Part shown: in pieces, positions 7,637 to 56,032 of the stretch
Layout: each line of letters begins with the position of its first letter
Position numbering within the stretch: position 1 is the first letter of the stretch
Origin: Chloroflexota bacterium
GTDB taxonomy: Bacteria; Chloroflexota; Dehalococcoidia; Lucifugimonadales; UBA3495
Assembly: GCA_009840135.1 (NCBI GenBank)
Contig: VXOH01000020.1
Location: 30,202-94,201 of the forward strand
Reading direction: 5' to 3'
DNA: 64,000 nt
The notes under the pieces: generated by a model
What the model was told of the DNA's origin: nothing
Database searches by the model: none
The model's input: only the letters and a program-made list of their open reading frames with translations
Made by a program: the position numbers and the translations under genes

Positions 7637-7713
7637 AGTATCAGAAAGGATGCCTTTGTAGGCCGCGAAAGTGCTACACTATGGACCCGGGCTATCTCTC
7701 GTCGGGTGTTGCC

Positions 7714-9297
7714 ATGCTTCGGCTGACAGTTCTCCTTCCCTTTACAATCCTGGCGGCAACCTTCCTGTTCCTGGGACCCTTTCCGCCAACAGCGTCCGCC
7801 CATGGATTCGGTGAGCGTTATGACCTGCCTCTCCCCCTCACCTATTTCGCTATAGCCGGAGCCGCCGCCGTTGTCCTCTCCTTTGTCGTGGTGGGCCTGT
7901 TTGTCCGAGGAAACCCCGCCCGCACCGGCTATCCCCGTTTCAACCTCTTCCGGTTCACCCCGGTTAGAATCATCCTGACCGGGCCCGTGGCCTGGGCGCT
8001 GAAGCTCGCTTCCGTGTTCCTGTTTTTCCTGGTAATCGCCACCGGCCTGTTTGGTTCCGAGCGTCCCGTCAGCAACCTGACACCCACCTTTGTCTGGATA
8101 ATATGGTGGGTGGGCATGGGATTCGTGGTGGCCCTGCTGGGCAATCTCTGGGCCCTGGTTAACCCCTGGAAGATACTCTACGGGCTGGCCGAGGCCATTT
8201 ACAACCGGTTCAACCCCGACTGGGAGCTTGGCCTGGGCCTGGACTACCCAGAAAGAGTCGGCGTATGGCCCGCTGTGGTCCTTTTCTTCGCCTTCGTGTG
8301 GGTGGAAAACGCCCTGCCGGACAGCGCCTCTCCGGCCATGCTGGCCTGGCTGATCATTTCCTACAGCGTTCTCACCCTGGGCGGAATGTACCTGTTCGGC
8401 AAGCACCGGTGGCTGCAGCGCGGCGAGGCTTTCACCGTCATATATGGATTCCTCTCCCGTTTTTCCGTAACCGAGGTGCGCTTCACCGATAAGGATGCCT
8501 GCATTGAACGCGATAGGCCGGAAGGGGAACCCGGAGACAAAGCGGCTGGGCAGGGCTGCGTGGACTGCTATGAGGGCTTCGAGTACGCGGAGGAACGAGA
8601 GTTCAACCTGCGGCCGCCGGCCATCGGGCTGCACTCGGAGCGTCCGCTGCCTTCCGGACTCACGGCCTTGGTGCTGTTGGTGCTGGCCACCGTAACTTTC
8701 GACGGCTTCAGCGATACTCCGGAGTGGGCAACGGTACTGGGCTGGGCCCTGGAGCAAACGCCCCAACTGACTTCCCCATACCTGAACGGCCTCGTAATTG
8801 CCAATACGCTGGGCCTTGCCCTCTTCCCCCTGGCCTTCGCCGCAATTTACTGGGGGTTCTCATCCCTGATGCGGTGGGTTGTGCAGCGTGGCGGAGGTTC
8901 AAGTCCCATCACCGTGGAGTTGATGGCGGCCTTCGTCTTCTCGCTGGTGCCAATTGCACTGGCCTACCATTTCGCCCATTACCTGGGTTTCCTGCTCATC
9001 CAGGGCCAGCTCATAATTCCCCTGGCATCGGATCCCTTCGGGGTCGGCGCCGACTTGTTCGGCACTGCCGGCTACAGGGTCAACATCGCCATAACCAACG
9101 CCCGATTCATCTGGTTCTTCGCCATAATTTCCATCGTCGTGGGACACATCATAGCGGTGTACCTGGCCCACCTGCGGGCCGCTTCCCTCTTCAAGAACGG
9201 GCAGTTGGCCCTGAAAAGCCAGCTGCCCATGCTTGTGCTAATGGTGATTTACACGGTGGTGAGCCTCTGGATTATTTCGAGGCCGATTACCGAGTGA
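7714..9297 (+). CDS. Polytopic membrane protein, resembles proteins annotated as fenitrothion hydrolase-like
   Basis: Signal-like N-terminus ending TASAHGFGERYDLPLPLTYF, many TM segments; name by resemblance only. Confidence 0.65.
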   Translation: MLRLTVLLPFTILAATFLFLGPFPPTASAHGFGERYDLPLPLTYFAIAGAAAVVLSFVVVGLFVRGNPARTGYPRFNLFRFTPVRIILTGPVAWALKLASVFLFFLVIATGLFGSERPVSNLTPTFVWIIWWVGMGFVVALLGNLWALVNPWKILYGLAEAIYNRFNPDWELGLGLDYPERVGVWPAVVLFFAFVWVENALPDSASPAMLAWLIISYSVLTLGGMYLFGKHRWLQRGEAFTVIYGFLSRFSVTEVRFTDKDACIERDRPEGEPGDKAAGQGCVDCYEGFEYAEEREFNLRPPAIGLHSERPLPSGLTALVLLVLATVTFDGFSDTPEWATVLGWALEQTPQLTSPYLNGLVIANTLGLALFPLAFAAIYWGFSSLMRWVVQRGGGSSPITVELMAAFVFSLVPIALAYHFAHYLGFLLIQGQLIIPLASDPFGVGADLFGTAGYRVNIAITNARFIWFFAIISIVVGHIIAVYLAHLRAASLFKNGQLALKSQLPMLVLMVIYTVVSLWIISRPITE

Positions 9298-12004: not shown

Positions 12005-12316
12005 CTATCTGGCGCTTGTCTGCGCCTGAGTGGCGACTGCGAACTTCTCAACTTCAATGGACTCAGCCAAGTCTTGAGCTTGCCAAAGGTCGTACGCGGC
12101 CTGGATACCTAGCCAGGTTTCGGGGGTTGAACCGAAGGCCATTGACAGCCGGATAGCCATTTCGGCGGATATGCTGGCCCTGCCATTTATGACGTCAGAC
12201 AACTTCTGGCGGCTTATTCCCAAGCCCCTGGCCGCCCTTGTAATAGTTAGACCCAGGGGCTCCAGGCATTCATACCTGACTATCTCGCCAGGATGGCAAG
12301 GATCATGTATGGGCAT
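12005..12316 (-). CDS. higA: HigA family addiction-module antitoxin (XRE/HTH)
   Basis: MPIHDPCHPGEIVRYECLEPLGLTITRAARGLGISRQKLSDVINGRASISAEMAIRLSMAFGSTPETWLGIQAAYDLW. Confidence 0.92.
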   Translation of the reverse strand: MPIHDPCHPGEIVRYECLEPLGLTITRAARGLGISRQKLSDVINGRASISAEMAIRLSMAFGSTPETWLGIQAAYDLWQAQDLAESIEVEKFAVATQAQTSAR

Positions 12317-12328
12317 TGTGAAGCCCTC

Positions 12329-12607
12329 CTAATGGTAATCTGTATAGTCCACATCGACTGCGTGCCCGTCCTCGAACCTGAAAGTGACACGCATGTTGCC
12401 CGACACTGAAACGGCCCAATGCCCGGCCAGTTGGCCGGACAAGGGATGAAGCCTCAATCCCGGTAAGTCCATACCCTGTGGACTGCTGCTTCGGTCCAGT
12501 ATTGTGAGTATGCGCCTCACTTTACCAATATGTTCCGGGGCAATTCGCCGCGAATTCCGCCCGTTGTAGAAGTCCCTTAGGCCACGGTTCCTGAAAGATT
12601 GAATCAA
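12329..12607 (-). CDS. higB: HigB/RelE family toxin
   Basis: MIQSFRNRGLRDFYNGRNSRRIAPEHIGKVRRILTILDRSSSPQGMDLPGLRLHPLSGQLAGHWAVSVSGNMRVTFRFEDGHAVDVDYTDYH. Confidence 0.92.
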   Translation of the reverse strand: MIQSFRNRGLRDFYNGRNSRRIAPEHIGKVRRILTILDRSSSPQGMDLPGLRLHPLSGQLAGHWAVSVSGNMRVTFRFEDGHAVDVDYTDYH

Positions 12608-17678: not shown

Positions 17679-18185
17679 TTACCGGGCCTCCAGTACGGAG
17701 CTCAGGTAAATCAGGTTGGCCTTCAATTCCGGGGCAATGTTGCCCTCCCTGGAAGATGCCAGTAGCAAGAGCAGGCGCAACTGGGCGGCCAGGTCAGAGG
17801 CCAGCTTCTGCTTTGCTTCGGCTTCCGTATCCCCCGCCACGGGCACCCTCAAACCCTGCAGGGGAAGCCTGGTGCGGGACTCTCCCGCCCAGTACTGGTC
17901 CAGTGTGTCTATGATCAGGACCGGTATTTCATTGGTGATTACAAATGGAGCGTCGGAGGGCGAGTCCTCGGGCCGCAGCGCGTCCACTTTCACCTGCGTG
18001 ACATCGCTGTGATTTATGTGGAAGACTGCTGCGTTGGGCTGGCTGGCCCCGATGATCCGCCAGTCCCAGTCCTCGGGAGTTGTTGCGTCCATCTCCGATT
18101 CGATATGCACGGGAATGGTGTCGTGTTCGGCCAGACGAGACTCGTTATCTCGCGGTGTGTCGGGTTGCGATTCGGGGGCGGGCAT
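17679..18185 (-). CDS. Hypothetical protein (last gene of LexA-box-headed gene run)
   Basis: 168 aa ORF, same strand and close spacing as upstream genes; no recognised domain. Confidence 0.65.
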   Translation of the reverse strand: MPAPESQPDTPRDNESRLAEHDTIPVHIESEMDATTPEDWDWRIIGASQPNAAVFHINHSDVTQVKVDALRPEDSPSDAPFVITNEIPVLIIDTLDQYWAGESRTRLPLQGLRVPVAGDTEAEAKQKLASDLAAQLRLLLLLASSREGNIAPELKANLIYLSSVLEAR

Positions 18186-18235
18186 TGATGGCCTCCCAGG
18201 TGGTGAAATTGGTCAATTAACAGGAGTATATTGGG

Positions 18236-18679
18236 CTACAAGGTCAGGATGCCAGGTACGAGCCGCTTGCTACCGGCGTCGGCGGCCAAGGCAGCACCGG
18301 TAAGGGCTATGCTGCCGACGACTATGGTACTACCCTTGGGCTCAAATATAACCTCAACGTGCCAGGGGGTCTCGCCTTCCAGTTCTATTCTGGCCAGTCC
18401 CACTGGGCGGGACTGGATGGAGCCGTCGGGTTGGCGAAAATCCCGGTCCTGCCACTTCTTTACGTCCAATTCATCCAGAACGTCCTCCGGCACATGAGTG
18501 AAAATTGATCTGGTGTCAACCAAACCGGTCAACTCGACGGATGTCGTCCGATCATCGTCCCACAGCCGGAAATCCACGGAAAAGCTGCCTGGCTCGCCAC
18601 CAATAGTGCTTCCAGCCAGGATCATCGGCTCGCCTGGCACCCGCTTCCTTTCTGCATCGGTATCATCATTTGAAACCAT
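18236..18679 (-). CDS. Retropepsin-like aspartyl protease family protein with degenerate active-site motif (VDTRS)
   Basis: VDFRLWDDDRTTSVELTGLVDTRSIFTHVPEDVL...PVGLARIELEGETPWHVEVIFEPKGSTIVVGSIAL; paralogous to 18723-19166. Confidence 0.7.
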   Translation of the reverse strand: MVSNDDTDAERKRVPGEPMILAGSTIGGEPGSFSVDFRLWDDDRTTSVELTGLVDTRSIFTHVPEDVLDELDVKKWQDRDFRQPDGSIQSRPVGLARIELEGETPWHVEVIFEPKGSTIVVGSIALTGAALAADAGSKRLVPGILTL

Positions 18680-18722
18680 ATTGTTCCACTCCAACACCAC
18701 AAGCCTTGCCGGTAGTTTCAAC

Positions 18723-19166
18723 CTACAAAGGCAGGTCTGCCGGTATGAACTTCTCATTTCTGGCATGAATGGCCAAGGCAAAAATCTCCAGGGCCAAGGC
18801 CCCCAGCAACGTGCTGCTTCCCGCCGGCCCAAAAACCGCGTAGACACTGCGCCTCTGTCCTTCCAACTCTATTCTGACCTGCCCAACGTCCAGTTCGAGC
18901 TTGGTACCGTCGGCCAATCTGAAGACCTCGGAGAATTCCCGTTCAATGCCCAGGTCCTCGAGGATGAGTGCAGGAACCTGCGGGTAGAATGCCCCAGTGT
19001 CCACCAGCCCGTTCAAGGTATGGGAGCGGGTCCCATCGTTACTCCAGAGCGTAAAGTCCGCGTAGAAGGTACCCAAATCCCCTCCGACAACGGTGGCAGG
19101 GAGAACAAGCTCCTCCACCGGCAGCCTCTTTACGAAGGCAGCGGCCGCCCGATTTTCTGTGCTCAT
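18723..19166 (-). CDS. Retropepsin-like aspartyl protease family protein (VDTGA)
   Basis: FYADFTLWSNDGTRSHTLNGLVDTGAFYPQVPALILEDLG...DVGQVRIELEGQRRSVYAVFGPAGSSTLLGALALE. Confidence 0.78.
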   Translation of the reverse strand: MSTENRAAAAFVKRLPVEELVLPATVVGGDLGTFYADFTLWSNDGTRSHTLNGLVDTGAFYPQVPALILEDLGIEREFSEVFRLADGTKLELDVGQVRIELEGQRRSVYAVFGPAGSSTLLGALALEIFALAIHARNEKFIPADLPL

Positions 19167-19180
19167 ATTTTCCTGCCCCG

Positions 19181-19534
19181 CTAGGCCTGCCCCACCTCTA
19201 TGTCCCAGGCGTTGTAGACCTGTTCCGGCAAGGAAATGGGGCCGACGGCCTCCTCGTAGTCCTTCACGTGCTTGCTGGCCAGCAGGGCAAAAGCCTTCAG
19301 CATCTGGGGGCTCACCTTTACGCGGGCCCGCAAAATGGGCTCCCTTTCTTCCATCTGCTCTCCGAAAAACATGACCGCAGAGTAGAGGCTGCTGTAAATG
19401 TGGAAAGAATCACAGTAGAAGGTTATCGGCTCCCCCGAAACCTCTGCAGTTTGAGTATCGCCGGGGTTGACGTAGCTGTCTTCCTGGGGTGGCTGGTCTT
19501 CAGGCGGAACGTAAGGACGCTGGATGATTGGCAT
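19181..19534 (-). CDS. DUF3467-like protein
   Basis: ITFYCDSFHIYSS...ARVKVSPQMLKAFALLASKHVKDYE pattern. Confidence 0.55.
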   Translation of the reverse strand: MPIIQRPYVPPEDQPPQEDSYVNPGDTQTAEVSGEPITFYCDSFHIYSSLYSAVMFFGEQMEEREPILRARVKVSPQMLKAFALLASKHVKDYEEAVGPISLPEQVYNAWDIEVGQA

Positions 19535-19671
19535 TTTATTGACCTCCCCGATTCTGGTACGCGGTTCCCATTATACACAGCCGGTGACAGCAGACGGTTA
19601 CCTCGGGTGGGCAAATAGAAACCGAAAAAGAACATGCATCCGTCCGCCTCCAGCCTCTGGCTTTCATCACC

Positions 19672-20166
19672 TTAGCCTTCATCACGTTTGCTTTCTACTT
19701 GCAGCCCGCGTGAGTACCTGCATAGGTGATAATACCCTATAGCCATAGCCTCCCACTCGTGGGTTGACTTCCTTGCACCGATCAGACCCATGCGCCGCAT
19801 AATGGCAAAGGCCAGTTGGTCCTGCGGCACCCGGGCGTGGCTGGACAGGGCCGCCCGGACCTCTTGCGCCGAGTAGGTGAATAGCGGCAGGCGATGCCGC
19901 TCAGACCAGTTAATCAGGGAATTGTCCAGCAGTTCCAGGGAAGGCACCGGCCAACGCATCCCTGACGGTTGCCCGTAAGCCACCGTACCGGGATGCCAGC
20001 GCTCCACCAACAGGTCAAGATTTCGCACCAAATGGTTAACCCGGCCCGCGGCATCCGGGTCCCGGCTCTTGGACATTCTGATTATGCCGGTTTGGATGAT
20101 TCCACCAGGATTGAATACCGCCCATCCCGTCTCTCGGACAGCGGCATCCAGGGCCAAGAGTGTCAT
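19672..20166 (-). CDS. Divergent RuvC-like (RNase H-fold) protein
   Basis: MTLLALDAAVRETGWAVFNPGG...HPGTVAYGQPSGMRW...VRAALSSHARVPQDQLAFAIMRRMGL...STHEWEAMAIGYYH. Confidence 0.65.
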   Translation of the reverse strand: MTLLALDAAVRETGWAVFNPGGIIQTGIIRMSKSRDPDAAGRVNHLVRNLDLLVERWHPGTVAYGQPSGMRWPVPSLELLDNSLINWSERHRLPLFTYSAQEVRAALSSHARVPQDQLAFAIMRRMGLIGARKSTHEWEAMAIGYYHLCRYSRGLQVESKRDEG

Positions 20167-20202
20167 GCTTCCCTCTCCTGTTCCTCATGGTGTGCCTCGT
20201 TG

Positions 20203-20505
20203 TTAACCGGACAGCGCTGCCATGAGCCGGCTGTACCCGCCCACAAGCCGGTTTGGTGAATTGCCGAAGCTGGAGAGTGGTTGACCTGGACTGCCGAAGA
20301 ATTGTGGCGTGCCCCGAGTCTCGTCTCCTTCCGTTTCAAGACTCATTCCGAAGGCCGGCTCCACGCCTGCGTTCAATGGTGTATCCTCCTGAAGGTAAAG
20401 GCCGACGTAGGAATATGCGCCGCACTGTAGGCAAATCCAGTCTCCATCGTCCCTGGCCAGGTCGCCGCCGCACCGTCCGCAGGCTTTCAATCTGAAATAG
20501 TCCAT
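20203..20505 (-). CDS. Small zinc-ribbon protein
   Basis: MDYFRLKACGRCGGDLARDDGDWICLQCGAYSYVG (CxxC...CxxC). Confidence 0.7.
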   Translation of the reverse strand: MDYFRLKACGRCGGDLARDDGDWICLQCGAYSYVGLYLQEDTPLNAGVEPAFGMSLETEGDETRGTPQFFGSPGQPLSSFGNSPNRLVGGYSRLMAALSG

Positions 20506-20528: not shown

Positions 20529-20548
20529 TATAGAACAATTGTTCTATA
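20529..20548. promoter_or_regulatory. Candidate LexA (Cheo-box-like) operator overlapping promoter
   Basis: Perfect 20 bp palindrome TATAGAACAATTGTTCTATA containing GAAC-N4-GTTC; TTGACA -35-like element just upstream on the minus strand, start codon about 25 bp downstream. Confidence 0.6.
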
Positions 20549-20671
20549 GCAATCGTTGCTTGTCAAGAGGTTTGCTCGTACATGCGATGGCACAGTCTGG
20601 CCAGAAAGTTTAGAATCCCGGCAGCGTTTCACAGTTTCCGCAACAATCCTGAACCAAATCCAAGGTGGGAT

Positions 20672-20753
20672 ATGCATTCAGCCCCGCATGCTAAGTAGGG
20701 GCGATTCGCGAATCGCCCCTATGGTCCGGGGCAGAAGCGTTGATTTGCAGCGG
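20672..20753. repeat. Palindromic intergenic repeat, family C copy 2 (inverted relative to 1819-1900)
   Basis: TAGGGGCGATTCGCGAATCGCCCCTA at 20696-20721 with matching flanks (cgttgatttgcagcg). Confidence 0.8.
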
Positions 20754-56004: not shown

Positions 56005-56032
56005 GTAGGGGCGCTTCGTGAAGCGCCCCTAC
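56005..56032. repeat. Palindromic intergenic repeat, family C variant
   Basis: GTAGGGGCGCTTCGTGAAGCGCCCCTAC. Confidence 0.65.

Follow-up and report, generated by a model that had tools for sequence, protein, structure and literature searches.

The LexA motif of Bacillus subtilis is GAAC-N4-GTTC, and this motif was later confirmed in Mycobacterium tuberculosis (PMC3323433). In C. difficile, the LexA box is GAAC....GTTT/GTTC, with lexA, recA and ruvC of this organism being preceded by GAAC....GTTT (PMC4234289). The locus described here lies in a stretch of 64,000 nucleotides, the whole of which is referred to as the window. It belongs to a 3.45-Mb MAG, the named public relatives of which are MAGs of the SAR202 cluster, Dehalococcoidia and Chloroflexota. 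A perfect 20-bp palindrome, TATAGAACAATTGTTCTATA, occurs in the window at 20529–20548, exactly as given in the preliminary description of this DNA (Table 1). With a probability of roughly 0.9, it can be read as a LexA operator situated within the core promoter that serves an SOS unit of two genes, and we infer from sequence that LexA binds at this operator and that DNA damage induces the unit.

The palindrome and the promoter around it

No second copy of TATAGAACAATTGTTCTATA was found in the whole window within three mismatches (0 expected), and among the perfect palindromes of the window it ranks third in length. The preliminary description had noticed no other GAAC-N4-GTTC in the window, which needs correction, as one is present at 8593–8604 inside an apparent CDS (7681–9297). 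With 0.76 occurrences expected per window, the core by itself is not beyond chance. What is beyond chance is the full 20-bp palindrome, its promoter location and its conservation at orthologues.

On the minus strand, TTGACA (20566–20561) ends 12 nt before the palindrome, and GAGAGG followed by an ATG at 20505 occurs downstream of it, so that the TTGACA, Shine–Dalgarno sequence (within GAGAGG) and start codon of the preliminary description were all recovered. The best promoter match of the window is TTGACA-N17-AACAAT, whose −10 element lies within the palindrome, and this differs from the form seen in the family. When the family sequences are anchored on the box, the footprint obtained is TGACA-N7-ATTGTATTA-GAACNNNNGTTC-TGATA-NNN-T, with flanks that are close to random and with TGACA kept across the family at the position of the TTGACA of the window. 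In the promoters of the Zn-ribbon gene, the first gene downstream, a −35 TTG was identified in 18/26 and a −10 TAnnnT in 19/26, with a spacing of 17 nt. This footprint reads as a core promoter enclosing the operator. Under either promoter assignment the predicted promoter is overlapped by the operator; the overlap claimed in the preliminary description is thus borne out both by the predicted −10 inside the palindrome and by the family footprint.

Two other features of the window were observed. A longer perfect palindrome, TAGGGGCGATTCGCGAATCGCCCCTA, occurs in two copies and a third diverged one (1849–1876, 20696–20721 and 56008–56029), representing a repeat family, possibly a small mobile element or hairpin repeat. 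In addition, two adjacent minus-strand ORFs (12005–12607) resemble, by eye, a HigB/HigA toxin–antitoxin pair.

Table 1. Features of the operator locus, in window coordinates.
Feature	Position	Strand	Remarks
LexA operator (predicted)	20529–20548	.	Core GAACAATTGTTC at 20533–20544; conserved before orthologous genes; core as in host lexA box
Sigma-70-like promoter TTGACA-N17-AACAAT (predicted)	20538–20566	−	10/12 consensus positions; −10 inside operator
Gene 1, Zn-ribbon protein (CxxC...CxxC), 100 aa	20203–20505	−	38/50 family genomes
Gene 2, RuvC-fold protein (predicted), degenerate active site, 164 aa	19672–20166	−	Weak Pfam/NCBIfam RuvC matches, predicted fold
DUF3467-like gene	19181–19534	−	Probably outside SOS unit
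Aspartyl-protease-like gene	18723–19166	−	Sub-threshold Pfam match; only some relatives; probably outside SOS unit
Second aspartyl-protease-like copy	18236–18679	−	Cross-matches genes matched by 18723–19166
Unknown conserved gene adjoining proS	17679–18185	−	Probably outside SOS unit

LexA-type boxes in the host and its relatives

A single LexA-domain match is present in the host genome. This protein scores 184 bits against TIGR00498 (cut-off 111), is complete in having both the DNA-binding and S24 peptidase domains by Pfam, and aligns with solved LexA in the AAG cleavage-site region, the Ser region and the Lys region. Upstream of its gene there is a box, GAGAACATTAGTTCAA, ending approximately 11 nt before the start codon. 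Comparison with the host LexA motif had been named beforehand as a means of refuting the LexA reading, and on comparison the host lexA box was found to have a matching core.

LexA-domain matches were identified in 47 of 49 family genomes. A GAAC-N4-GTTC box with at most one mismatch (at least 7/8 positions) is located upstream of 28/30 family lexA genes, against a mean of 2.3 and a maximum of 6 for shuffled sequence (n = 30 upstream regions), these and the following box counts coming from related genomes that are not independent samples. The lexA boxes mostly carry a GTTT right half (GAAC-N4-GTTY type) and are weaker than those of the Zn-ribbon gene. Homologs of the latter occur in 38/50 family genomes, 28 of them with enough upstream sequence for analysis, and the box is found at 7/8 or better before 26 of these 28 (shuffle mean 1.66) and in exact form before 16 (shuffle mean 0.07). 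When every inverted 4-mer with a spacer of 0–16 is ranked, this box takes first place together with its overlapping registers. It is conserved before orthologs in many genera, at varying distances from the start codon, and almost no residual similarity exists in its flanks among related genomes.

These data bear on the suggestion that the palindrome arose by chance or from a repeat and has no regulatory role. Such an origin could appeal to the expected number of cores per window and to the longer repeat-family palindromes nearby (20696–20721), but that repeat differs in sequence from the LexA-type palindrome, and the box is kept at orthologs in many genera while its flanks and its distance to the start codon are not. 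A chance origin was rejected on the basis of the orthologue conservation and the shuffles, and the suggestion as a whole has a negligible probability.

Further boxes in the host genome precede the genes of a Y-family (IMS-family) polymerase, a TIGR03916 rSAM_link_UDG protein and a small HTH protein, with two boxes upstream of the gene of an Rv2578c-family radical-SAM protein and a weaker one, having two mismatches, at a DUF5131–TcmP pair. Another box (C187:13439) lies ahead of an ORF of 82 aa for which Pfam gave no match. Weaker host matches (C110:21032, C105, C88, C91 and C22), which lie inside ORFs or have no clear gene, were left uncounted. A search of 49 family genomes with an extended-box pattern recovered many Zn-ribbon loci and, judging by visual inspection of how the ORFs downstream begin, the same types of gene. 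The small HTH protein possesses a conserved CPLPxCK motif (L069:3455–3787 on C177 of the host genome, with relatives at L185 and L194). In several genomes its gene is preceded by a strong LexA-type box, which makes it a candidate for another undescribed SOS gene.

It could also be proposed that the box is the site of some other palindrome-binding repressor, for example of the XRE or phage type, with the half-site GAAC shared by coincidence. With half-sites of TATYAGAAC, the boxes of the Zn-ribbon gene do exceed the GTTT-ending lexA boxes in length and symmetry, but their GAAC-N4-GTTY core and its spacing are those of the lexA boxes in the respective genomes, repair-type radical-SAM genes and polymerase genes carry the box as well, and the RuvC-like protein of the locus is without a phage match. 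This proposal is therefore considered very improbable. The LexA reading of the preliminary description is favored instead by the host lexA box, the 28/30 family lexA genes, the other SOS-type genes and the conservation at orthologs.

A recA gene under a LexA box is part of the textbook SOS core, and recA of the host and its family departs from this. No LexA box was found upstream of host recA, while among 30 family recA genes the box is present at 7/8 in 11 and in exact form in none, so recA may lie outside the LexA regulon in this family. Upstream of recA in the family (L065, L202–L230), any LexA box is weak or missing, but the promoters have in common a TGAC-N9-TTG-N19-21-TAnnnT architecture that is strongly conserved. 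The TGAC-N9-TTG part, in which TGAC lies upstream of the −35, was also identified in 17/28 Zn-ribbon and 23/30 lexA promoters, compared to 28/30 for recA. In the host genome, TGACA-N8-TTG-N19-21-TAnnnT gave 22 sites (L231–L252) against two for a reversed control, an approximately tenfold excess. These sites include a stretch, TGACACCTCCCCCTTGCCACTCCGCATGACC...TCTAGCAT, that is repeated on several contigs, and MnmA-like and GalE-like ORFs (by eye), which are seemingly unrelated to damage, are among the genes concerned. The pattern was dropped as a second damage-response element since a repeat family and apparently damage-unrelated genes match it; it appears to be a general feature of promoters in the lineage.

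Extent of the unit and its two proteins

The preliminary description placed the palindrome at the head of a six-gene run. The same-strand ORFs of this run are present (the ORF of the second aspartyl-protease-like copy reaches 18847, but translation more likely begins from the ATG at 18679), while its treatment as one operon is not favored by the gene order of relatives, which supports a two-gene unit. The RuvC-like gene follows the Zn-ribbon gene in 20/20 relatives' loci read, and in several relatives their coding regions overlap by a few bases. The DUF3467 gene and the gene at 17679–18185 are likewise conserved as a pair, which lies beside proS. The SOS unit most likely consists of the Zn-ribbon and RuvC-like genes, because a sizeable opposite-strand ORF is often found between the two conserved pairs, separating the RuvC-like from the DUF3467 gene at eight of the 13 loci that were inspected in relatives.

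If the operator instead drove all six same-strand genes (17679–20505) as a single SOS operon, this would fit their common orientation and the gap of just 137 nt between genes 2 and 3, in which no terminator-like site was found on the minus strand. It would fit poorly with the intervening opposite-strand ORFs and with three of the relatives' loci read through, whose stretch contains the Zn-ribbon/RuvC-like pair but no DUF3467 (L113, L117 and L123, that of L117 stopping at a contig end). The single operon is thus an unlikely arrangement, with read-through across the 137-nt gap being possible in the host genome.

For the product of the second gene, matches to RuvC fall below the cut-offs of both Pfam (21.4 vs. 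22.2 bits) and NCBIfam (21.8 vs. 100.65). Its predicted structure (mean pLDDT 86) gave top Foldseek matches that were all RuvC, the best being those of D. radiodurans, T. thermophilus and E. coli with TM values of about 0.7–0.8 and structural-alignment identities to solved RuvC of 15–20%, and its profile reaches RuvC of E. coli and P. aeruginosa at 6.5e-8. The protein is accordingly predicted by modeling to have a RuvC fold. A separate canonical RuvC is encoded elsewhere in the host genome. Together with six further canonical RuvCs from the class, this canonical protein was aligned with 18 homologs of the RuvC-like protein over the active site, which comprises D7, E66, D138 and D141 (E. coli numbering). 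At the position of E66 all 18 homologs have G, S, C or R, never an acidic residue; D7 is lost in 3/18, the third catalytic position is His or another residue, and the fourth is always Glu. The RuvC-like protein thus lacks the complete acidic active site of RuvC. From the absent E66 and the other active-site changes, we infer that it is a DNA-binding protein of the RuvC fold that is either non-cleaving or altered. A class-wide search with the RuvC-like profile matched many genomes; the matches that were aligned were canonical RuvC and showed no wider spread of the pair.

The Zn-ribbon protein has four invariant Cys residues in 20 homologs. Its Pfam Zn-ribbon match is sub-threshold only, and no solved relative was found by sequence. 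A phage or defense origin of the locus was also considered and rejected, given that the RuvC-like protein had no phage match, PADLOC returned no match for four of the locus genes and the PHROG matches were all weak.

Proposed function and comparison with known systems

In the proposed mechanism, a LexA dimer on the palindrome would block RNA polymerase, and upon DNA damage the RecA-stimulated self-cleavage of LexA would free the promoter. The RuvC-like protein, being without E66 and in some cases without D7, would bind branched DNA without cutting of the RuvC type, perhaps with the Zn-ribbon protein as a partner, and would either shield junctions or modulate the host's separate canonical RuvC. 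This role as a non-cleaving binder of branched DNA is conceivable, with the odds somewhat against it. More tentative still is the wider proposal of an undescribed SOS-induced module of SAR202-type bacteria, made up of the Zn-ribbon protein and a catalytically dead RuvC paralogue that would bind Holliday junctions or forks as a protective or regulatory pseudo-resolvase, with recA mostly outside LexA control.

In the open literature searched, we found no description of SAR202 LexA motifs, of a LexA-regulated RuvC paralogue or of this operon. For a marine lineage that is mostly uncultured, the analysis provides a LexA motif tested at the sequence level, as well as a conserved putative SOS gene pair in which a RuvC paralogue minus a catalytic acid has retained its LexA box across genera. 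With this pair, a pseudo-resolvase role in DNA repair becomes directly testable.

The operator resembles the Gram-positive-type LexA box in its core, its spacing, its place in the core promoter and its presence before lexA and repair-type genes. It differs from the Gram-positive-type systems in that the host is a SAR202-type Chloroflexota bacterium, in that recA is without an exact box and in that the predicted regulon includes the Zn-ribbon/RuvC-like pair. The RuvC-like protein is comparable to the Holliday-junction resolvase RuvC (PF02075) in its predicted fold and in a weak but significant profile similarity, and ruvC of C. difficile is likewise LexA-regulated (PMC4234289). Unlike that resolvase, it lacks E66 (18/18 homologs) and in some homologs D7 (3/18), and it remains below the Pfam and NCBIfam cut-offs. 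The operator is therefore of a known kind, while the Zn-ribbon/RuvC-like pair under it is modestly new and seemingly undescribed.
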